Assembly: GCA_964036045.1 (NCBI GenBank)
Contig: OZ038384.1
Location: 62,035,355-62,099,354 of the forward strand
DNA: 64,000 bases
Direction: 5' to 3'
From: Eutreptiella sp. 'Long Island Sound 2002'
Lineage: Eukaryota; Euglenozoa; Euglenophyceae; Eutreptiales; Eutreptiaceae
In this document: in pieces, positions 1,063 to 49,419 of the stretch
Layout: each line of letters starts with the position of its first letter
Numbering within the stretch: position 1 is the first letter of the stretch
Made by a program: the position numbers and the translations under genes
Notes under the pieces: model-generated
Seen by the model: only the letters and a program-made list of their open reading frames with translations
Told to the model about the DNA's origin: nothing
Databases searched by the model: none

Positions 1063-1642
1063 TCGGTAGGTAGGTATCTTCGGGAGCTCGGGATGCCTCC
1101 TTTGACATTGCAGGAAGAAGGTCTTACCAAGGGGACATCCTGTCCCTCCCACTGCCCTATGTCAGGTGCCTCTTGAGCCGCTCCCGCATGTGCTTCGGAA
1201 AGCATTGTCGCGGCCACCCGGTCCATGTGTCCCAGGGCGGAGGGTGTCCCCACATGTGTCCATGGGTAGGGCCACATGCCCCCTCCTTTGGGCGGCAGCT
1301 CTGGGGGCTGCTCAGCTGTGTGGAGTATCTCTCACCACAAGGGGTATTGCTCCCGCTAGTCTACGGTACGACCGCCTAACTCTTGTGGCTTGAGTTGCGG
1401 GGCCACTCTGCTTGGCAGGCGACCCCCTCCTGGACTGTGTACCGGCTCGCCTGTCACCGGTTGCTTCCATGGCTCCGGGTGACGTTTGCCATGGTCCCTG
1501 ATGCAGCCTGGCCGGGCTCGGACCAGTGGCCTTGGAGTACCGCTCCTGCCACTGGCCCGGTGATTCGGCTGGGTCGCCCCAGTGCGTCTGACCCATGGGG
1601 TGTTGGTTCTTTCCTGTCCCTCGGCCGCCCTACGTGTGTGCA

Positions 1643-2199: not shown

Positions 2200-4510
2200 C
2201 TGGGGTGCGGCGTTTCTGGTGCTGTGCGTGGCCGTCGGTGTATGCCGGTGCCGGTGCTGGTGTGGGCGTGGGTGTCGTGGGGGACGGGGGTCGGGTGGCT
2301 GTCGCGCTCTGGGTTCCCTGTGTGTGCGCCTGCCCCCAGGCTTCCGGTTTCCAGGGCGCAGGTCTGGGGGGTGCTGACGGCGGGTGGTTGGCGGCAGTGG
2401 TGGCGTGGCGCTTGCGTGGATGGTCGCGGCTCCTGGGTAGTGCCTTGGTGGCGTGGCCGGGCGCGGGCGTGCGTGTGGGTGTGTTCATGGCGTGGGCTGA
2501 TGGGGTGGTGAACAGTGTGGGCGTGGGTGGTTTGTGTGGGTGTCGGGCATGTGTGCGCCGAAGGCGCGGTGGGTTGGGCTGGGGCACTGTGATCGATGCA
2601 ATGGGTGGAGGAGATGCTGGTGACGCCTACGGGGGGGGTGCTGTAGGCGTCGAAACGGGTTGGTGTTGTTGACGTGGGTGCTTCAGCTGGTGCGCCGGGC
2701 GGCGACGGGGTTGGTGACGCTGATGGTGTCATAGGTGACGGGGCGGGCGCTCGGGGGGGCCTGCGGCTCCGGTGGTCACCGTAGGTGGTGCAGTGGGTGG
2801 TGGCATAACTGGTGATGTCGGCGGTGAGGGTGCTGCAGGTGACGTCGATGGTGAGGGCGCTGCTGGTGATGTCATGGGTGGTGGCGATGTTGATGTGGGT
2901 GTTGCAGGTGGTGTGCCGGCTGGTGGCGCCGCTGGTACTGTCCTTGCGTAGGGTTGTGCTGGGAGTGCTGTGGGCGGTGGTGTCGTCGGTGGTGCTGATG
3001 GTGAGGATGACGCAGGCGATGCACCGGGTGACGATGAGGCCGGTGTGTGTCGTAGGTGACGCGTTGGGAACGGGTGGTGGGGGGCTGGAGGGGGGTTGCC
3101 GTTGGTGCAATGGGCGATGGTGGCGTTGGTGCCGCAGGTGGTGGATCGGGTGATGGTGTTGTTGGTGATGACGACGAGGTGGTTTGTCTGCCTGTCTGCC
3201 CGTGGAGTCGGTGCCGGCGTGGGGCGGTTGCCTGTGCGTGTGGTGGTGGCGGTGGGAGTCGGCGCGCCGGGCGCTTGGTCGGCGTGGTTGGGTGCGGGTG
3301 CGCGTGTTGTTGTGTACTTGGTGCGGGTTGCGGGGGGTCTGTGGGCGGCGGGTGCGCTGTTGCCGTGCGTGTGGCGGTTTGTATTGTCTGGTGGAGCGTG
3401 GCCAGCGTATGCTTTGCGTGGATGGTGTGGGTTCTGGTCGGTTTGGGTGGTGTCGGTGTGGGTGTTTGGGGCTGGGTGCTGGTTGCGGGCGTGTCGTCCG
3501 CGCGGTGTGGTCGGGCGTGATGGTGGTGCCGCTGGCGACGTCGATTGTGACGGTGCTGCAGGTGATAAGGGTGGGACGGCGATGTTGGCGGTTTCTGTTG
3601 TGGGTGCTGTGGGTGGTGTTGAGCGTGGGGGTGTTGCAGGTGTGGTGCCGGGTGGATGGTGGTGTGCCTGGCGACGGCGTCGTGAGTGCTGTCGGGGGGG
3701 AGGGTGTTGTTGGTGGTGCTTTGGGTGGCGGTGCCGCCGGTGAGAGGCTGGCGGAGAGGAGAGGGCGGTAGTGCGGCCGGGCGCGTTGTTGGGTTCTTCG
3801 GTGTGGGTTGTCAGCCGGAGGTGGGTGTGGCTGGTGGTGTGGCGCTCGGTGTGTGTGGCCTGTGCCGGGTATCTTGGGTGCGCTTTTTGGTGCGGGTGTG
3901 TTGATGGCGGCGGTTTGTCCGCCTTTCTGCCCGTGGAGTTGGTGCCGGCGTTGGGTGGCTGCCTGTGTGCGGTTTGTGCCGTTGTGTGTGGCGGTGGTGG
4001 TGGGCGTCGGTGCGCTGGGCGCTTGGTGGGCTTGGTTGGGTGCGGGTTTGCGCGTGGAGGTGTACTTGGTGGGCAGCTTGTGTTGTCTGATGGTGCGTGG
4101 CTGGTGTATGCTCTGCGTGGATGGTGCCGCTGTGGCTGCTTGGGGTTGGGTGCTGGATGTGGGTGCGTCGCCTGCGCGGTGTGGTCGGGCGTGATGGTTG
4201 GTTCTCTGACGTGTGTGGCCGGCTGGTGGCGGGTGTGGTCGGGCCGGTGTGGGCTGGGTGGTGGTGGTGGTTGTGGCTGGGCTGCTTGGTGGTTTTGGTG
4301 TCGGTGGGCGGCCCTGATGATGGGTCTTGGGTGTGTGGTGGTGGGTGGGCGTGTATGGTGATGGTGATGGTGTGTCACTGCGGGTGTTGGGTGTGGTACT
4401 GTTGGGCGTGTGGTTTGTGATAACTGAGCATTCACCCCTCCGGGTGGCGCGGGCCCCGTGGTCCGGTAGCCCGTCCGGCAGGCAGTGCGTGCCCGCCGGG
4501 TGCTCCCGCG
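2200..4510. other. Strand-asymmetric G+T-rich low-complexity stretch of E1
   Basis: The plus strand is extremely rich in G and T with short imprecise GGTG/GCTG periodicities. On the minus strand 2,729-4,621 is open for 630 codons, reading Pro/Thr/Ser/His-rich low complexity with short TSPAAPSP-like repeats. This position could correspond to the proline-rich ORF of E3/E4, but no conserved block is visible and base composition alone removes most stops. I do not call it a gene. Confidence 0.5.
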
Positions 4511-4925
4511 TCCCTCGGGACGGCGGCTGTTCCTTAGCCGGCAGGGGCTTGGTTCACTGCCGGGCGCACACACGTCCCTCCGGACGGCGGCTGTTTTGTA
4601 GCCGGCAGGGGATGGGTTCACTGCCGGGCGCGCACACGTCCGTCAGGACGGCGGCTGTTTCGTAGCCGGCAGGGGCTGGGTTCACTGCCGGGCGCACACA
4701 CGTCCATTTGGACGGCGGCTGTTTCGTAGCCAGCAGGGGCTGGGTTCACTGCCGGGCGCACACATGTCCATCCGGACGGCTGCTGGTCTGTAGCCGGCAG
4801 GGGCTGGGTTCACTGCCGGGCGCACACACGTCCGTCCGGACGGCGGCTGTTTCGTAGCCGGCAGGGGTGGGGTACCCTGCCGGGCGCACACACGTCCATC
4901 CGGACGGCGGCTGTTGCGCTGTGGG
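4511..4925. repeat. 64-bp minisatellite, about 7 units
   Basis: The core CGGCGGCTGT recurs at 4,521, 4,585, 4,649, 4,713, 4,777, 4,841 and 4,905, a 64-bp period. The sequence is unrelated to the neighbouring 65-bp unit. It is probably part of E1, or of a second element fused to it. Confidence 0.9.
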
Positions 4926-5383: not shown

Positions 5384-7590
5384 GTGTCCTGGGCCTCCTG
5401 GCTCCTGTTCACCAGCGTGCATGTCCTGTGTGTGGTGTTGCGTGTGCGGTGTCCTGGGCCGCTTGGCTCCTGTTCACCGGTGTGCACGCTCTGTGTGTGG
5501 TGTTGTGTGTACGGTGTCCTGGGCCCCCTGGCTCCTGTTCACCGGTGTGTACGCTCTGTGTGTGGTGGTGCGTGTACGGTGTCCTGGGCCTCCTGGATCC
5601 TGTTCACCGGTGTGCACGCTCTGTGCGTGGTGTTGCATGTACGGTGTCCTGGGCCTCCTGGTTCCTGTTCACCGGTGTGCACGCTTTGTGTGTGGTGTTG
5701 CGTGTACGGCGTCCTGGGCCTCCTGGCTCCTGTTCACCGGTGTGCACGCTCTGTGTGTGGTGTTGCGTGTATGGTGTTCTGGGCCTCTTGGCTCCTGTTC
5801 ACCGGTGTGCACGCTCTGTGTGTGGTGTTGCGTGTACGGTGTCCTGGGCCTCCTGGCTCCTGTTCACCGGTGTGCACGCTCTGTGTGTGGTGTTGCGTGT
5901 GCGGTGTCCTGGGCCTCCTGGCTCCTGTTCACTGGTGCACACGCTCTGTGTGTGGTGTTGCGTGTACGGCGTCCTGGGCCTCCTGGCTCCTGTTCACCGG
6001 TGTGCACGCTCTGTGTGTGGTGTTGCATGTACGGTGTCCTGGGCCTCCTGGCTCCTGTTCACCGGTGTGCACGCTCTGTGTGTGGTGTTGCGTGTACAGC
6101 GTCCTGGGCCTCCTGACTCCTGTTTACCGTTGTGCACGCTCTGTGTGTGGTGTTGCGTGTACGGTGTCCCGGGCCCCCTGGCTCCTGTTCACCGGTGTGC
6201 ACGCTCCGTGTGTGGTGTTGTGTGCACGGTGTCCTGGGCCTCCTGGCTCCTGTTCACCGGTGTGCACGCTCTGTGTGTGGTGTTGCGTGTACGGCGTCCT
6301 GGGCCTCCTGGATCCTGTTCACCGGTGTGCACGCTCTGTGTGTGGTGTTGCGTGTACGGTGTCCTGGGCCTCCTGGCTCCTGTTCACCGGTGTGCACGCT
6401 CTGTGTGTGGTGTTGCGTGTACGGTGTCCTGGGCCTTCTGGCTCCTGTTCACCGGTGTGCACGCTCTGTGTGTGGTGTTGCCTGTACGGCGTCCTGGGCC
6501 TCTTGGCTCCTGTTCACTGGTTTGCACGCTCTATGTGCGGTGTTGCGTGTACGGCGTCCTGGGCCTCCTGGCTCCTGTTCACCGGTGTGCACGCTCTGTG
6601 TGTGGTGTTGCGTGTACGGCGTCCTGGGCCTCCTGGCTCCTGTTCACCGGTGTGCACGCTCTGTGTGTGGTGTTGCATGTACGGTGTCCTGGGCCTCCTG
6701 GCTCCTGTTCACCGTTGTGCACGCTCTGTGTGTGGTGGTGCGTGTACGGTGTCCTGGGCCTCCTGGCTCCTGTTCACCGGTGCACACGCTCTGTGTGTGG
6801 TGTTGTGTGTACGGTGTCCTGGGCCTCCTGGCTCCTGTTCACCTGTGTGCACGCTCTGTGCGTGGTGTTGCGTGTACAGTGCCCCGGGCCTCCTGGCTCC
6901 TGTTCACCGGTGTGCACGCTCTGTGTGTGGTGTTGCGTGTACGGCGTCCTGGGCCTCCTGGCTCCTGTTCACCGGTGTGCACGCTCTGTGTGTGGTGTTG
7001 CGTGTATGGTGTTCTGGGCCTCCTGGTTCCTGTTCACCGGTGTGCACGCACTGTGTGTGGTGTTGCGTGTACGGTGTCCTGGGCCTCCTGGCTCCTGTTC
7101 ACCGGTGCACACGCTCTGTGTGTGGTGTTGTGTGCGTGGTGTCCTGGGCCGCTTGGCTCCTGTTCACCTGTGTGCCTGCTCCGGTGTGCTGTGCCGTGTG
7201 TACGGCGTCCTGGGCCCCTTGGCTCTGGTTCACCGGTGTGCACGCTTTGTGTGCGGTGTTGTGTGTGCGGTGTCCTGGGCCTCTTGGCTCCTGTTCTCCG
7301 GTGCGCGTGCTTGTTGTGCGGTGTGGTTTGTGCCGTGTTCTGGGCTTCCTGGCTCCTGTCCTCCGTCGTGCCCGCTCTGTGTGCGGTGTCGTGTGTGTGG
7401 TCTCCTGGGCCTTTTGGCTCTTTTGTGCATGTGTGCTCCTGTGGTGTGTGCTGTGTTGTGTGTGTGGTGTCCTGGGACACTTGATTCGTGTTCTCCGGTG
7501 TCGCGGTGTGTTGCGGTGTGTGTTGTGTCTGGTGTGCGGTGTTACGTGTGCGGTGTCCTGGGACTCCCGGCCCCTGTTCACCGGTGTGTG
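5384..7590. repeat. Expanded 65-bp minisatellite, about 34 units
   Basis: GTGTCCTGGGCC-type units repeat every 65 bp from 5,384 to about 7,553. Most are nearly identical; those after about 7,130 are more diverged and slightly irregular, as expected at an array edge. The unit is the same family as the 3'-region arrays of E1 and E3, so an element-borne minisatellite has expanded greatly here. Open frames of 886, 835 and 450 codons across it are artefacts of the repeat. Confidence 0.95.
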
Positions 7591-42591: not shown

Positions 42592-43846
42592 GAAACTATG
42601 TTGGAATGGGCACACAAAACGGATGGTCACCCTGGGGTGGAGAGAACTCTTTGGTTCTTCCAGAAGTATTTCTTCGCTAAGAGTAGCGATGCATCTCTCA
42701 AGAAGATGTTATCTAAGATCATCGCTGAGTGTCCCTGCACTAAGGCTAAAGCTAACACTGCAGCTGATCGTGGTGAGGTAAGGAATCTCCCGATTCCGAA
42801 CCAAATGAACTCCATCCTCTACGTGGATTTTATGGAGTTACCTAAATTCGCTGGCCATGACTTCGCCCTCCTGGTGACGGATGGACTCAGTCGCTACAGC
42901 CGAGTGTTTCCCCTTACTAAGAAGGTAGATGGTGAAGGAGTATTGAAAGAGATTTTCGAAGGATGGGTACAAGTCTACGGATTACCCAAGATTATCCACA
43001 GCGATCAAGACATCTGGTTTACCAGCCCTACTGGTTGGTACCGAAGCGTCATGAGAGCCATGGGTACGGAAGTCCAGTTCGGAACTCCTTACCTACGAAC
43101 AAAGAATCCTCTGTGCGAACGCCAAATTGGCTGTTTCAAAACAGTCATGAGGATTCTGATGCTGGCCGAGAAGAGCCGAAACTCGCTAAAACTAGTCCCT
43201 TATGCTATCTACTTGATGAATAATCAAGTGAGTAGCAGGACTGGTTTCACCCCTACGGAACTGTTCCTAGGGAGGCCAGGTTTCAACTTCGAATTCCCCT
43301 GCGCGAGCGAAGGAAATCCTAAAGTTGATGAATGGCTCACCGAGCAAAAACGGATCGCCGATCTATGCCGATCACTACTGGAAAAGAAAAGAAGTGAGGA
43401 GAATCGTACCAAGAACCGCAAAAGAAAAGAAGCTATCTACCAAATTGGTGACTGGGCTCTGGTACATCACACAAGATTCAAGGCATGGCCTCGTAACACG
43501 CTGGACAGCCCTTACTTCGGACCATTTCTGGTCACGGATGTAGCTGAAGGATCCGTGTGGATCAAAACTCATCCTAAGTACGGAGGTCTGGTTGAAGTGG
43601 GTTACCCACAGCTTAAGCACTATGACGTGCTAGACGACCTCTACGACTGGGAAGAAGATCTACAAGAAAGCCTGGAAGCTGCAGCCGAAGATTTGGCCGC
43701 GGATCCTATGGATGAAGATGAAGAACTGCCGCCTATGGAGGATGACGGTTCACTACCTAGACTACGGATGCCCGAAAGGGACATCTCTCTCTCTAGACCT
43801 ACTGTACCTACACCTACGGCCGTAGAGGCTAGACCCAAAAGAATAA
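42592..43846 (+). CDS. Gypsy C integrase (cut by B2)
   Basis: Zinc-binding HHCC-like region (HKTDGHPG ... CPC; the cysteines are C-x-C instead of C-x2-C). The catalytic triad is present: Asp in YVDFMEL, Asp in HSDQDIWF, Glu in CERQIG. A GPF-type C-terminal beta domain (YFGPFLV, VGYPQLKHY) and an acidic/Pro-rich tail follow. It joins viral DNA to the host. The ORF reads into B2 at 43,847; the chromodomain that completes the protein is on the far side at 49,420. Confidence 0.85.
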
Positions 43847-43850
43847 CCCT

Positions 43851-44219
43851 GCGTGCGCGCAATGTCGCATTTTTTCCATAGTGTGCGCAAATTTTCAAAA
43901 ATACGACCTTTATAGCGCGCCTATTGCGCGCGCTCTACCGCGCTATATTGTCCTGTTTTTCAAATTTTTCAAAGCCGGAAAATGTTTCAAAACCATGCTT
44001 TTTCCAGTGTCCTGCGTTTCTCAAAAACCCCTTGCTTTTCAAAAACATTCCCTGTTGCTCATTCAACCCAAGACACATGCAAAAACACTGTCTGAAAGGT
44101 CTGAAAAGTGTGCAACGGTACAGGTCCTCACGGACGAAAACAGTGTAGCGCGCGCAACATATTTACAGCGCGCGCTGGCAGCCTTATGGCGCGCGCTATA
44201 CCAGGTATAGCGCGCGCTG
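43851..44219. repeat. B2 left subterminal GCGCGC array
   Basis: GCGCGC-centred motifs, typically TAGCGCGCGCTA or TTGCGCGC, occur at 43,853-43,945 (about five) and 44,145-44,219 (about four to five, some as perfect palindromes). The stretch in between has few. The array abuts the stop codon of gene 2. Confidence 0.8.
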
Positions 44220-47096
44220 TCATTCAGTGATATCCTCAATGGTTTGGACCACCACTTTGGCCTCCCACTCCTTCTCCCATTCGGGTCTGTGGTCTTCTGC
44301 CCCAGTGGCAGCTGGGGCTGCATCCCCTTCTTTGTGGTCTTCTGCCCCAGTGGCAGCTGGGGCTGCATCCCTTTCTTCTTGTGGGCTTGGGTCGCCTTCT
44401 GGGGTTGCTCCTTGTGGTGCCTCTTCTTCTTTCGGGGCTGCTCCTTCTCCTTCTTGTGGCGTGGACGCTGGCGCCTCTCCTTCTTGTGGTGGGGCTGGTG
44501 CGTCGTCTTCTTGTGCTGCTGCTGCTGCTGGGGCTGGTGCCTCTTCTTCTTGTGCAGCTGCTGCTGGTGCTTCTGCTGGTGCTGCAGCTTCGGCAGGTCC
44601 CTTGTCTCCTTGTGGGGGGGCTGGTGGCTGGGCTGGTGGGTCTCCTTGGGGCTTCTTCTTCTTTGGGGATGGTGGCTTCGACGGGGGCATCCTCATGGTC
44701 TTTGGGTCGGGGCAGAGGTCCTCAATGTCATCGGCCTCGTACGTCTCCCACCACGACTGCCACTTGCCCAACTCCTCATACGCTTTGCTTTTGGCGGAGA
44801 ACACCTGGCAGCTGGGCATGAACTCCGACCAGTCGTCCTCTTCCTCCTCCTCCTCCCCTTGTTGGCTGGGGCTCCACTGATCGTTGGGGATGATGACGGC
44901 CACGTGGTCCTGAGGGGCCCTCCTGGCGCCTGCTGGCTTGATTTCGGCTCCCTCCACAATCATCGGCGCGATCGCAGTGGTGCAGTAGATGATCCACCGA
45001 GGCTTGTAGCCGTCTTTGTAGGACCACTCTCGGCGCTGCATGAGCTCCTCTCTTGCCTCCTTGTCCGCGTCGGCTCTGCCCTGCTGCTTGGCCTTGGGAG
45101 CCGTACTGGGTGGGGTGGAACCGCACGGAACTCCTTGTTCTTGTGGCTGGTCTGGGACTGGGACAGGCTGCTTCGGTGCTGGCTTTGATGCCTGGTAAGA
45201 GTAGCGCGGAGGCATAGCACAGGCATAGCACGCGCAATACGGAACATAACACGCGCGACGAGATGCATAGCACGTGCAATGACGACAATAGCGCGCGCTG
45301 CATTACCTTTTCTGCTTTCTCCTCCTCTGCTTTCTTCCGTCTCTTCTCCTCCTCTTCCTTCTCCTTCTTCTCCCTCTCATTCTTCTTCCTCTTTTCCTCC
45401 TCATCCTTCTCCTTCTTCTTCCTCTTATCGTCCTCTTCCTTCTTCTTCTTCTTTGCTTCGTCCTCTTTCTTCTTGGCCTGTTCCGCCTGACGTTGGACTC
45501 GGTGTGCCGCCTCTGCCATCAGCCGCTGGTCGGCAGTCTTCTGGGCAAGGACCTTTCCAGGCGGGTGGGGGGGCTTAGCGGTGTGGGAGGCGGAGATGGC
45601 TTGTGGTAGGTGGCTGGTGGCTGCTGGCCCCTCGGTACGCTTCTTCTTGGGCCTTGGGACTGTCACGGATTCCGTCTCCGGCACGGCAAAGGCGTCGGCC
45701 CAGTCCACCTCCAGCTCCTCCAGCTGCCGCTTAGCCCGGGCCAGCACCGGGGAGGGGCCTTGCTCCTTCCGTCCGTCAAGCCAGTCGGCCGCATGCTTGG
45801 ACTGCCCGGCAATGTCCGCGGGCACGCTGATCATCAACGGCCCTCTGCGGGATCCCAGGCACAGAAGCTGCTCGAAGCTGCCCACCTACGTGACAATGGG
45901 ACAGAAGGTAGGGCCGTAGCGCGCGCAAACAATCAAATCGCGCGTGCTACAACAAATGAAGCGCGCGCAACAATGTCGAAAGCGCGCGCAATGGCAAACA
46001 TAGCGCGTACCTGTGGCTGTGCCAGTTGTTGTTGTTGTTGCTGCTGTTGCTGGGCCATCTGCACCCGCTGCTGCTGCTGGAGCAGCTGCAGTGTTGCCTG
46101 CTGCATGGCTGCCTGCTGTTGGAGCTGCTGCTGCTGCACTTGCTGCTGCTGCGGCTGCTCCTCGTCCTTGACCGCCGTGGTTTTGACTGGGGCGCCGGTT
46201 GCAATTGCCCTTGCGGCACTGGCTCCTCTTTTGGCTGACCCCCGCATCAAACTGGCACTCGCACTTCTCACCGAGGCGCACTCGTTCCCGAAGGCCATTG
46301 CCCCCGCGTCGGTCGCGTTGATGAAGCTCGGTGGGTCCTTGTTGAAGTAGAAGTGGTGGACGGTCTTTGCGGTGGCACCCGGAGGCGTGTGGGTCCGAAC
46401 GTGACCCCACCCATAACTTGCCCAGCACGAGAACAGCAGCTCGTACTCCTCCACCTTGCAGTGTCTATAGGCAGCTTGTCCTTCTTGGGTTGGCACGGAG
46501 GGGTTCAACAGGTTGTGGAGACTGCACCAGGTGCCAGTAATGCTTTCGTCATACCAGCAGGGTTTCACGGCTCTGTCTGGGATCTTGGCAATGGCCGTGG
46601 CCCTTTGGCGCCAGAACTTGTAGAAGGCCACCTCGAAGAGGTAGGCCGGTGTCACGCACTGGGGAGCCCAAGGTGGGCGACCCACCGGGGAACAGCATGG
46701 GAGACAGCTGCTGTGAGGCACCTCGTAACGGGGACTGCGGCGCGGGCCACAGAGGCTGAGTTGCGGAGAACTGGGTCAGCTGCTGGGACAGCGTCTGCGG
46801 AAAACAGGACAAAGCACACGCAACCAGGACGTGCGTAGTGCGCACAACGAGACAGCTAGCACGCACAATAAGAGCGTAGCACGCGCAACGGAAACAGTAG
46901 TGCGCGCAACGGAAACAGTAGTGCGCACGGCAAGTACCTGTGGCCGCATGCTCCACGGCGTCGTCGACGGCTGCTGCAGTCCCGGTTGTAAAGCTGCATG
47001 TGGCGGTGGCTGCGGTGTCGCACCTGCTCCTGCGGCCCCTGCAGTAGTTGTTGGCGGTGCTGCAGGAAGCGGATACCCCCAGCCCGCGGGGTGCAT
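44220..47096 (-). CDS. B2 gene 2: polyQ/coiled-coil/acidic protein, 4 exons
   Basis: Model on the minus strand: exons 47,096-46,938, 46,794-46,011, 45,885-45,307 and 45,191-44,220 (TGA), with introns of 143, 125 and 115 bp, all GT-AG and all phase 0. Exon 2 has one extra base (784 nt), implying a frameshift near 46,650. Features in order: a Pro/Ala-rich start; a structured aromatic block (AYLFEVAFYKFW through the CWASYGWGHV region); a polyQ stretch; a block with GPLMISVPADIAGQ; a long Lys/Glu coiled coil; a WSYKDGYKPRWIIYC block; and an acidic, Pro/Ala/Glu-rich tail. About 830 residues. I do not recognise the family. It may be an accessory transposition protein, as many DNA transposons have two genes. 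Confidence 0.6.
45192..45306 (-). other. B2 gene 2 intron 3, GCGCGC-rich
   Basis: Donor GTAATGCAG, acceptor CTTACCAG, 115 bp. It contains about six GCGCGC or close variants (CACGCGC, GCACGTGC), spaced about 17-25 bp. Exons on both sides lack them. Confidence 0.8.
45886..46010 (-). other. B2 gene 2 intron 2, GCGCGC-rich
   Basis: Donor GTACGCGC, acceptor TCACGTAG, 125 bp. It contains about five to six GCGCGC-type motifs in alternating orientation. Confidence 0.8.
46795..46937 (-). other. B2 gene 2 intron 1, GCGCGC-rich
   Basis: Donor GTACTTGCC, acceptor TTCCGCAG, 143 bp. It contains about seven motifs (GTGCGCAC, TTGCGCGC, GCACGCGC), with one 24-bp unit repeated almost exactly in tandem. Confidence 0.8.
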
Positions 47097-47392
47097 GGGC
47101 AAGAGGGTTACATTAAAGTACCCCTGTTCCAGCAGTAATACAAAAAGGAAAATGCAGTAACAAAAAAATCGAAAGCACCAAAACAAACGGACGAAAAGGA
47201 ACAAATCAATGCATTCTAAATTCCAATCAATGCATTCCAAACGCTTTAGGTGCGTCGTCATAGCACGATACTTCCGGTTATATATCGCGATTTCAAGGGT
47301 TCCAGCGCTTGAAAACATCATAGCGCGCGCGATAGTGGTCATTGCGCGCACTAGATAGCATGTAGCGCGCGCTAAAAAACAAATAGCGCGCG
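47097..47392. other. Spacer between the two B2 genes
   Basis: About 300 bp. The part next to the transposase stop (47,320-47,392) holds four GCGCGC motifs; the rest is AT-rich with no gene. It could be the gene 2 promoter, or another intron: a GT donor-like site overlaps the transposase stop at 47,396, and an AG at 47,124 precedes open sequence, but joining them is not in frame. Confidence 0.5.
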
Positions 47393-49194
47393 CTACCACA
47401 GTTCCTCATCCGCAAAATATGCCCGAACCTCGTCAGCTATTTTTTGTGCATTGCACAGGTTGCTTCTGGAGTTGCCATTCCACCTTGGTACTTCAAAGTA
47501 CAGGAACAGACGGTCATTAACCTGCCTGAGCATCTTAATGCGGCGCAACACCAGGGTTCCTGCCCCCCCACCTCTATCACAAAAGGAGGACCAAATGTCC
47601 TTCAGCACCCTGTTGCTCCCTTCCAGAAGATCACCCGAAAACATTCCTAGGCCATAGGGCCTTATGGCCTGAATAGTAACTGTTGCATCGTGCAACATCC
47701 AGTTTATATAAGGTGATCTTATTGCTGGACAAGCCCACCTCTGGAAAGCCTGGGCAACCTCTGGAGCCTGCAATGCACCCTCTTCAAACATTGTGCCATA
47801 CATGTCCCCCAGTAGCATGTACATGGCAACCACTGCTGTGTGCATTCTCATGTCACCCCCAAGGAGGGGGGCAAGGTCCTCCCAAACCTTTAGAAGGCAC
47901 CAAGTCTCTTCCCCATCTGGCTCTGCCGTCCCCTGTAGTGCTATGTGACAACCAGACCTGTGAAGAATAGCCTGAACAGAGACCCTAGTACTGGGACGCA
48001 CAGACTTGGCCAATCTGCGTACCAAGGCAGTGACCTGCCTCCCTACAAAAATCAGAAGGTGCAGAACACATGGTATAAGGTGACGCCGCCTCAGAGGCAC
48101 CTTCAACAACCTGCTCTGGACAACACCAAATATATCCATGGGCCTGCACTTGGCCCCAGGTGCAATAAGCCCTAGCAACTGCTCATCTCGCTCGGTGGTT
48201 CTATCCACATCCTGTTGCAACCACGTTGCACTGGACTTGCACCACGTCATGTAAGTGAACAGACTACCTGCCATCCAATGTGTAGTGACACCCGACAACC
48301 GACGCAGCCAAGGGCTATCCCCACCGCAGAAAATCCTACAGCGTCTGGATGCAGCCCGGATGTGAAGCACACCAGTGTCAAGGGCACTCTGCAGAAAAGC
48401 AAGATTGTTAGCCCAGACCCGGGACAACACAGAGGTGGACTTCTCACCACAAAGGGCGACGTTAACAGTCCAGTGGTAGGACAACGTCCTTGCCAAGTGA
48501 CCATGGTTGGCAAAGGAAATGTACATCTGGCACCACGATTCCCCCCCACAAGGCAACCCATCCCCCCTCACAATGATCCACAGCTCTCCTTGGCACTCCC
48601 TGGGGTATTGGAGGTTAGAAACAATGGAATCAAAGGAAAATATATAGTCAAAAAAGTGCTGCAGGGGCCACTGCGAAAGGACTGTGACCCCATCTGTGTG
48701 CACGGCAACCTCTAAATGCTGCCTACTTGCAAGCTGGTTCCATTCTGTGGCGAAACTAGCATAGGAGGGGAGAGAAAAAAGGTGTGTGGGGACCTTACTT
48801 CTCGTCCAAGTAATCAAATCTTTGTACCTGAGGAAAATAGCGCGCGCAACATGGGGACGTAGCGCGCGCAGAAGTCAACGAAGCGCGTGCTATGAGCGGA
48901 AGTGCGCGCAATGTCACATGCAAAGCGCGCGCAATAATACCTTTTTCTTGGAATCCCCAGGAGCAGGACCAAGTCCACCAGCGACAGGGGTGTGACGGCG
49001 TTGGCAGCCTCGGTCCTGCGACGCTTCTTCTCTGCTTCAGACACGGGGACCCTTTTTTCCAACCTGGCCCACAAGGACCGTTGGACGGCAGACCCTGAGC
49101 AAAAAAACTCAACTAAGTCCGCCAAAAGGTCCTCGTTCTTCCACAGGGACCACCCATAGTGGGGGCCCAAAATGTTTGCAATCTTCCCTGACAT
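47393..49194 (-). CDS. B2 gene 1: DDE-type transposase, 2 exons
   Basis: Exon 1 (49,194-48,941) and exon 2 (48,827-47,393, TAG) flank a 113-bp GT-AG phase-2 intron; about 562 residues. Conserved blocks: EDLLADLVEFF in exon 1; IVRGD (strand with Asp); GGDSPWLRR followed by TYMTWC; PCVLHLLIFVG; EPDGEETW; FSGDLLEGSNRVLKD (Glu) and a following GGG. The order Asp, Asp, C-x-x-x-H, Glu resembles the large eukaryotic DDE transposases grouped as KDZ/Plavaka-like, but the superfamily is not assigned. It would cut and rejoin DNA in the nucleus. The ORF appears intact. B1 carries a broken homologue with the same intron position. The upstream start is uncertain: extra 5' coding sequence to about 49,290 is possible. 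Confidence 0.75.
48828..48940 (-). other. B2 transposase intron, GCGCGC-rich
   Basis: Donor GTATTATTG at 48,940, acceptor TTTCCTCAG at 48,828, 113 bp. It contains five GCGCGC-type motifs at about 20-bp spacing. Splicing joins blocks that align with B1 on both sides, which validates the intron. Confidence 0.85.
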
Positions 49195-49299
49195 TAACAG
49201 CGTCAGATGTGGTGCCGGAAGAATCTGAAACGTTAGAAAAATAGGCGTTTTTGCCCTGCTTATTAGGACATGGGGTTACAAACCCAAGACCCCGAGCCA

Positions 49300-49382
49300 T
49301 AGCGCGCGCTATGCTGCGCGCTATAGTTTTGTAGTGCGCACTGAGCCATCGCGCGGCAATACCCTGTAGCGCGCACACAGGG
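49300..49382. repeat. B2 right subterminal GCGCGC array and terminal hairpin
   Basis: Five to six GCGCGC-type motifs close to the right end. The last 21 bp begin CCCTGT and end ACAGGG around a GCGCGC core, so they can form a hairpin. Confidence 0.75.
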
Positions 49383-49419
49383 AAGCGCTAGTGAACCCAT
49401 TACGTTTACTGAATCAGAG

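Follow-up and report, generated by a model that had tools for sequence, protein, structure and literature searches.

In the genome of Eutreptiella sp. 'Long Island Sound 2002' a two-gene cut-and-paste transposon carries one 12-bp word, T[AT]GCGCGCGC[TA]A, at both of its ends, between its genes and in every one of its introns, with none in the exons. We consider it likely that a protein encoded by the element, most likely the gene-2 product, binds this word as double-stranded DNA; the transposase of the element is predicted to have the RAG1 fold. The layout suggests that an element-made protein recognises its own DNA along the length of the element, in a large algal genome. Features found in the window (the whole stretch of 64,000 nucleotides that was analysed) are listed in Table 1. 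The element ends in CCC...GGG, duplicates 2 bp of its target and has four introns, all of them GT-AG; the coordinates of these introns and of the element ends had already been placed exactly in the preliminary description.

Table 1. Features of the transposon in the window (sites at no more than two mismatches where indicated).
Feature	Positions	Strand	Basis or remark
Whole transposon, CCCTG...CAGGG	43847..49382	-	both genes on minus strand; ends, frames, copies
Target-site duplication AA, left copy	43845..43846	.	other copies also with 2-bp duplications
Left terminal inverted repeat CCCTGCGTGCGCGC (element 3' end)	43847..43860	.	terminus recurs in copies
Subterminal sites, element 3' end (two at <=2 mismatches)	43879..43935	.	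site scan
3' array, four sites, spacing 21, 21, 20, immediately past gene-2 stop codon	44146..44219	-	site scan
Gene 2 exon 4, low-complexity C-terminus	44220..45191	-	frames/splice model
Intron 4, three sites (<=2 mismatches), spacing 21, 42	45192..45306	-	site scan
Gene 2 exon 3	45307..45885	-	frames/splice model
Intron 3, four sites, spacing 21, 21, 21	45886..46010	-	in other families an intron precedes the corresponding block
Gene 2 exon 2 (WLxDIT domain)	46011..46794	-	comparison with copies
Intron 2, four sites (<=2 mismatches), spacing 21, 20, 21	46795..46937	-	site scan and copies
Gene 2 exon 1	46938..47096	-	frames/splice model
Intergenic array, four sites, spacing 21; starts in gene-1 stop codon	47321..47395	-	12/12 copies
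Gene 1 exon 2: RNase-H-like catalytic region	47393..48827	-	RAG1/Transib fold in predicted model
Intron 1, five sites, spacing 23, 19, 21, 22	48828..48940	-	20/20 copies; position and phase common to three other families
Gene 1 (transposase) exon 1	48941..49194	-	frames/splice model
Subterminal sites, element 5' end (two at <=2 mismatches)	49300..49378	.	site scan
Right terminal inverted repeat CCCTGTGTGCGCGC (minus strand; element 5' end)	49369..49382	.	window sequence and copies
Target-site duplication AA, right copy	49383..49384	.	window sequence

Compared with nine fetched copies, gene 2 of the window copy misses 306-327 bp near 46,655 and is therefore out of frame there, which leaves the intron calls unaffected. 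By eye, the element is seen to interrupt a Gypsy-like frame, which is preserved if the AA is counted once.

Counting every match to the word with at most two mismatches as a site, we find 16 sites in 496 bp of introns, six in 373 bp at the 3' end, two in 188 bp at the 5' end and three in 296 bp of intergenic region (plus one that overlaps the gene-1 stop); the exons hold none in 4,183 bp and the remaining ~58 kb of the window four. Motifs centred on GCGCGC, the self-complementary core of the word, had been reported at both ends and in all four introns; these locations are borne out by the counts, and the intergenic array had been missed. The same description called the motif nearly absent from exons, which holds as a count, but the exons are simply at background level and a depletion was rejected. 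In a blind test with the most over-represented 8-mer of the element, only one of 28 matches was centred on coding sequence, which makes up 75.6% of the length (P 6e-16). A reversed-word control is uninformative for this element because the word is almost its own reverse. Additional degenerate sites are visible in intron 2.

The spacing is tighter than the loose 17-25 bp first described: among 18 neighbour distances of up to 70 bp, 13 measure 20-23 bp and 10 exactly 21 bp, the usual spacing and the equivalent of two helical turns. Since 21 bp is also seven codons, the arrays could be read as coding heptad repeats (as RA/AR). This was rejected: a stop in the exon's frame lies within one intron, another intron runs into a stop just beyond it, intron lengths are never multiples of three, and the same arrays also stand outside the genes.

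Three further families in the same genome show the same layout, with intron 1 at identical position and phase in all four; their transposases are 35-38% identical, whereas in the alignment the gene-2 domain is only 19-24% identical between families. In a blind 8-mer search on one element per family (n=4), the top word occurred two or more times in every one of the 14 modelled introns and in 25 of 26 non-coding segments, and the coding share of the matches was 1/28, 4/47, 2/24 and 4/37 (P 6e-16 to 4e-8). One of these models (L023) has a first gene-2 exon that is one base short, which hardly affects the counts; for L022 the 3' end was not found, the element was taken to the locus end and one acceptor site was chosen for its frame. 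At its 5' end, L023 has no site among the blind matches. When searched for in the other three families, each of the four words gave 0 or 1 matches. Given that the families have the same layout yet a word each, the word is replaced in concert across the non-coding DNA of each family. Arrays within one family are shared by descent, and independence thus rests on the four families. Spacing follows 10.5 bp in three of them, whereas the five spacings of F518 show no helical phasing. For a further family, two retrieved pieces (L067 and L068) contained no element sequence.

These family-specific words bear directly on the possibility that the sites are bound by a host protein, be it a transcription factor, a silencer or an insulator. 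Such a protein would leave the same helical phasing and constraint; however, one host protein would not favour four words in four families of a single genome, which makes a host binder unlikely. Genome-wide, the words are over-represented against reversed controls (1,477 vs 19; for the F506 pair 825 vs 1), an observation that by itself does not separate a host from an element protein.

It might also be argued that the pre-mRNA is where the arrays work, either enhancing splicing or forming hairpins that pair the intron ends, given the self-complementary core and the presence of an array in every intron of the element. Yet the non-coding stretches near both termini have the same sites, the words of the other families are not GC palindromes (in counts that take in each locus as fetched, beyond the element itself), and F506 has its word only in minus orientation in one intron and only in plus orientation in the following one. 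At L021 the sites are all plus in one intron and all minus in another (relative to transcription), so that recognition of DNA fits better than recognition of RNA. We therefore regard a role in the pre-mRNA as very unlikely.

Equally, the introns could be introner-like, or could have been copied from the terminal arrays and spread within the element; the preliminary description had suggested the latter. Transposable elements are a known source of introners (PMC9860276, in the sections available), and by eye intron 2 contains a short local duplication of the repeat unit. With the sites masked, however, 21 comparisons among introns, intergenic region and ends gave no outlier once multiple testing was allowed for (lowest P 0.02): unlike introner elements, these introns show no clear resemblance to each other or to the ends. 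Moreover, families that differ in their word agree in the place of intron 1, which hence predates the present word. There is thus no support for a spread of the terminal arrays into the introns, and an origin of this kind appears highly improbable.

Conservation was analysed in copies from L033-L064 that were chosen by their transposase protein. The motif persists in their introns, and copies lacking it there, which the preliminary description had named as a refutation, did not turn up: among 20 copies (18 from the upper part of the protein-match table and two from its lowest rows) both splice sites of intron 1 are present in all 20, all five sites in 16 and at least three of the five in every copy. 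All 12 copies used for the intergenic/intron-2 piece, drawn from the same 20, keep the four intergenic sites and at least two intron-2 sites. Over these protein-selected copies 18 of 2,460 cells changed in sites and 145 of 5,002 in spacers (Fisher 5e-11); for intron 1 by itself the difference is not significant (P 0.12). CpGs were counted in the same selection (changes in sites 9/992, spacers 14/596, coding 19/836) and in a 14-copy set (23/1,784, 57/1,229 and 130/3,827, respectively). The latter consists of the window copy and 13 of the 20 copies L001-L020, which were chosen on contig C1 for containing TAGCGCGCGCTA and are biased towards arrays (L011, L014-L018 and L020 were left out as short or rearranged). 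Neutral growth of functionless tandem repeats, which non-coding DNA tolerates and of which the runs of a 10-bp unit in F506 arrays are reminiscent, is hardly credible given that spacers of the window element differ in sequence while spacing stays near 21 bp, that sites change about four times slower than spacers, and that CpGs in sites change less than those in spacers or coding DNA. In the 14-copy set CpGs outside the sites evolve more quickly than other bases, but not consistently so in the protein-selected copies, which is why the hint of methylation is weak; C5-cytosine methyltransferases are encoded in the genome.

As to the transposase, the predicted model has the RAG1-like catalytic fold of RAG1/Transib, and on this model the protein is of the RAG1-fold lineage. 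An initial guess of KDZ/Zisupton membership was rejected, since hAT came out far below RAG1 and Transib when folds were compared; the 8-bp duplications of Zisupton, against 2 bp here, also disfavour it. Transib duplicates 5 bp of its target. The duplication is 2 bp in the window family and in F506: it is AA in the window copy, and is exact in six of the eight other copies whose ends were examined (out of the 20 copies L001-L020) and in both F506 copies. A seventh of the eight fits if one terminal base has changed, and L009 does not match. For the CMCT clade, PMC12730594 describes, in the part available, C(2)C and H(3-4)H motifs between the second D and the last E. Within D170-E402 (residues that we assigned from conserved columns) of eight aligned proteins these paired motifs were not found: a single CxxC is present, in L027, and a single HxxxxH, in the window protein, and no protein has both. 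The 2-bp duplication falls within the 2-5 bp of CMCT; the termini, which are CA..TG in most CMCT members, are CCCTG..CAGGG here and CCCTAG..CTAGGG in F506 and L023, and the 5' end of F518 is CCCATC. On this model, the RAG1/Transib fold would seem to occur also in a lineage that duplicates 2 bp and lacks the Cys/His motif pair shared by RAG1 and its known relatives.

No Tnp2 or other transposase model in Pfam matched the eight transposases at E<=1, a search that very divergent members could escape, and the gene-2 pieces gave no Pfam match of note. A search of PDB chains returned three matches, none credible; viral contigs yielded one pattern match and no confirmed close relative, and a viral fold library nothing at E<=0.001. 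The predicted structure of the gene-2 domain (pLDDT 51) is too poor for use.

The binder is probably the fast-evolving gene-2 product, acting like Arabidopsis VANC or maize TnpA; we infer DNA binding by this product because of its position, its speed of change and the analogy. Such a protein would recognise the word in ends, intergenic region and introns, at sites mostly one or two helical turns apart and on one face of the DNA, where it could therefore bind cooperatively. Introns would carry sites because they are the sole non-coding DNA inside the genes. The occupied segments might let the element mark its full length, which may keep it open to transcription (anti-silencing, VANC-like), and/or they might assemble a transposition complex (TnpA-like). 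With a word for each family the system would stay private, and a shift in the specificity of the protein would take the sites along at all places. Introns as extra internal binding sites, the interpretation first offered for this element, are thereby favoured on sequence grounds by constraint and helical phasing, and by both orientations and family-specific words elsewhere. A more far-reaching picture is possible but rather doubtful: a RAG1-fold lineage, not met in the literature searched, that keeps its introns as docking platforms for a self-recognition protein, with helically phased sites from end to end and six or seven arrays rewritten in concert as specificity drifts. VANC-like self-recognition would then have originated a second time, independently of plants and of MULEs, and a transposon would have a reason to keep its introns.

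VANDALs, which have a comparable layout, are MULEs. The statement that no described system has such a layout was wrong: the accessible part of PMC5735166 places VANC21 on the non-coding DNA of VANDAL21 (introns, intergenic and terminal regions) and describes a short motif to which it binds; the targets of VANC6 carry another motif. Sections of PMC5735166 and PMC10398659 report that VANDAL motifs differ between related families, with a proposed co-evolution with the element-encoded protein. As in VANDAL21 and VANDAL6, a family-specific short motif occurs here in introns, intergenic and terminal DNA; unlike in VANDAL, the modelled transposase is RAG1-fold rather than MULE, the host is different, no VANC is recognisable from Pfam, sites are helically phased in three of four families, and binding and anti-silencing are putative. 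En/Spm and other CACTA elements with TnpA/TNP1 likewise have arrays of motifs that differ between families, and a transposase plus a second product. Their subterminal motifs diverge between families of one species, and the DNA-binding protein is believed to diverge in parallel (PMC2613891, available sections). In the same sections CACTA arrays are subterminal, with CACTA termini and a 3-bp duplication, whereas our arrays also occupy introns and the intergenic region, the ends are CCC, the duplication is 2 bp and the transposase gave no credible Pfam match.

New in comparison with VANDAL/VANC are the other transposase lineage, the helical phasing and the concerted turnover of the word. A full-text literature search, working at the level of titles and abstract openings and with subscription papers mostly outside it, found no RAG1-like transposon with intron arrays. 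If the reading of the word as a site for an element-encoded protein is true, self-recognition by intron-tiled arrays arose at least twice (in flowering-plant elements and in a RAG1-fold algal transposon); array-based self-recognition would then be a general transposon strategy and introns of mobile elements would gain a job. Four families with four words in one genome also offer a natural series for the joint change of a DNA-binding protein and dozens of sites. Finally, and counting against the reading of an element-encoded binder, a different element (L065), for which nothing credible was obtained from Pfam in four frames, has a similar word; the window word gives 10 matches there.

The preliminary description placed a short motif in both ends and every intron of the transposon, and hardly at all in its exons, and site counts in the window (G000:C7:62,035,355-62,099,354; genome of 2.28 Gb) bear this out. 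With a site defined by at most two mismatches to T[AT]GCGCGCGC[TA]A, we find 16 sites in the introns, six at the 3' end, two at the 5' end and three in the intergenic region (plus one spanning the gene-1 stop), and none in 4,183 bp of exons; four more lie in the window outside the element. All four intron coordinates were also correct, each with GT-AG borders. The spacing, put at about 17-25 bp, proves sharper: among the 18 distances between neighbouring sites no more than 70 bp apart, 13 measure 20-23 bp and 10 of these exactly 21, and none of 20,000 random draws scored as high for 10.5-bp phasing (0.74). Genome-wide, TAGCGCGCGCTA, a word identical to its reverse complement, is found 1,477 times on each strand, against 19 for the backwards pattern.

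Coordinates of genes and other features
Feature	Location	Strand	Remarks
Gene 1 (transposase)	49,194-47,393	minus	one intron
Gene 2 (candidate site-binding protein)	47,096-44,220	minus	three introns
L065 site cluster	near 1370-1500		
L065 site cluster	near 3050-3170		
L065 site cluster	near 4520-4740		
L065 site cluster	near 7155-7260		
Tandem chlorophyll-binding domains	G000:C9:43682069-43694992		and similar places

CCCTG at 43,847 and CAGGG at 49,382 bound the element, which is flanked by AA on either side and sits in a Gypsy-like open frame; this frame runs through if AA is counted once (by eye) and has an integrase core matched at E 7e-5, below the Pfam cut-off. Six of the eight other copies inspected at their ends have an exact 2-bp target duplication; a seventh would have it given a change in the last base, and the eighth shows no match. 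Duplications are TG and AA in two copies of the related family F506 and apparently AT (by eye) in L023, a locus of the related P21 clade; no target preference is visible among the insertion sites of the copies inspected. Gene 2 of the window copy is out of frame near 46,655, since 306-327 bp present in nine fetched copies are missing; in a tenth (L004) this stretch is about 137 bp long. For gene-1 exon 2, 54 of 89 scored genome matches lack an internal stop (counted from the match table), and with 9,104 candidates the family must be larger than these 89. Three proteins (P0004, P0019, P0023) appear to be internal-deletion derivatives with transposase pieces fused to gene 2 or the terminal region; translation of P0019 continues through intron 4 and displays its array.

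A search of the same genome with the divergent relative P0021 gave at least 146 matches, and eight loci of related families were fetched, whose full-length transposases are 35-38% identical to that of the window element over exon 2. Each family has its own word, and each of the four words has zero or one match in the other three families.

Words of the related families (at most one mismatch, over each fetched locus)
Family	Loci	Word	Matches	Reversed word
F506	L021, L028	CGGTTGAACA	35, 34	1, 2
F518 group	L022, L024, L025, L026	GTTTGAATCA	12, 14, 19, 12	0
P21 clade	L023, L027	TGCAACTTTG	23, 18	1, 3

The comparison of introns, exons and ends was made blindly, taking the top 8-mer without gene models in a single representative of each family (window, L021, L022, L023). 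In all four it is largely confined to non-coding DNA: 1 of 28, 4 of 47, 2 of 24 and 4 of 37 matches are centred on coding DNA, which accounts for 55-76% of the sequence (P 6e-16, 7e-15, 4e-8 and 2e-8). It occurs at least twice in 25 of 26 non-coding segments, including all 14 modelled introns, the exception being the 5' end of L023. Reversed words gave 9, 3 and 8 matches in L021, L022 and L023 without the non-coding pattern; the window control (26 matches) carries no information, since reversing that word hardly changes it. Genome-wide, F506 word pairs number 825 against 1 reversed. Intron 1 has an identical place and phase (2) across the four families, and two gene-2 introns, as we read the gene models, precede equivalent blocks in the window element, F506 and F518; the last of these introns has low-complexity surroundings. 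Both genes are fully open in L021; L022 has some stops. Within the P0021 subfamily (locus L066; identity to P0021 77% for L069 and 65% for the L023 locus) a variant of the L023 word is retained in intron 1 (by eye). Phasing recurs in F506 (0.83, to which tandem 10-bp units contribute, so that its spacings are not independent) and P21 (0.65), with P 5e-5 or less as for the window element, and is absent in F518 (0.01, five spacings). The related family of L022, L025 and L026 has 5' ends CCCATCATGACAG and sparser arrays that are not clearly phased; no 3' end could be recognised in the DNA fetched for it.

Twenty copies were chosen from the transposase table, independently of the motif. All 20 retain intron 1 with its splice sites and three or more of its five motif sites (16 have all five); the four intergenic sites and two or more intron-2 sites are present in 12 of 12. 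Copies with motif-free introns, which the preliminary description had named as evidence against itself, were thus not encountered: every protein-selected copy examined keeps an array in intron 1. Departures from the majority base amount to 18 of 2,460 cells in sites (0.0073), 145 of 5,002 in spacers (0.0290) and 108 of 6,423 in exons (0.0168). The site-spacer difference (Fisher P 5e-11) is driven by the intergenic/intron-2 set (P 1.5e-7); for intron 1 alone P is 0.12.

In 14 motif-biased copies, CpGs outpace other bases outside sites, as expected of methylated DNA, but not inside them (CpG departures: sites 23/1,784, spacers 57/1,229, coding 130/3,827; non-CpG: 37/2,391, 352/10,175, 750/42,091). 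This hint is weak because the protein-selected copies give a mixed picture: CpG change is again least within sites (9/992; spacers 14/596, exons 19/836), and CpGs are faster than other bases in the gene-2 exon piece, and slightly faster inside sites, with no such excess in spacers or near intron 1. Judged from sequence, the constraint on the sites is, unlike the methylation hint, not weak. The C5-cytosine methyltransferase family has 55 matches in the genome, and heavy cytosine methylation is reported for viral insertions and their flanks in E. gracilis (PMC12455990).

Layout, constraint and phasing favour the proposal that the arrays are binding sites. The other proposal, that they arose by spread of the terminal arrays, fares worse: once sites are masked, spacers from the four introns of the window element, from its two ends and from between its genes show no clear similarity in 21 pairwise comparisons (lowest P 0.02), and there is thus little sign that one array was copied from another. 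The original observation is confirmed and extended and its interpretation partly supported. Action in DNA would fit better than action in RNA, because in L021 five sites are all minus in one intron and six all plus in the next (mixed elsewhere), and because ends and intergenic DNA carry the same words as introns.

That no described system has such a layout does not hold; it is known in kind. In Arabidopsis VANDAL21, VANC21 is described as located in introns and in the non-coding DNA between genes and at the ends (PMC5735166), and as in the window element the motif lies in all three. VANC21 binds YAGTATTAY and a different motif occurs in VANC6 targets; protein and tandem-repeat targets are proposed to co-evolve (PMC5735166, PMC10398659). 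Like the families studied here, the CACTA families of a single species, soybean, have different subterminal motifs (PMC2613891). Within the literature searched, what appears new is the transposase type, the host, the helical phasing, and the four-family series in which the word is replaced in concert in introns and ends.

The window-element word also has 10 matches in L065 (G000:C1:1242000-1250600), an element-like stretch without detectable similarity to the window transposase, whose own word is similar. Its four clusters of TTGGCGCGCCAA-like sites are spaced about 21-22 bp, and some of the clusters, if not all, seem to lie between coding blocks. A euglenid host is suggested by two features met elsewhere in the genome: the TTAGGG telomere repeat, carried by one of four contig ends inspected (L030), and chlorophyll-binding domains that lie in tandem inside one long open frame, which can reach several thousand residues.
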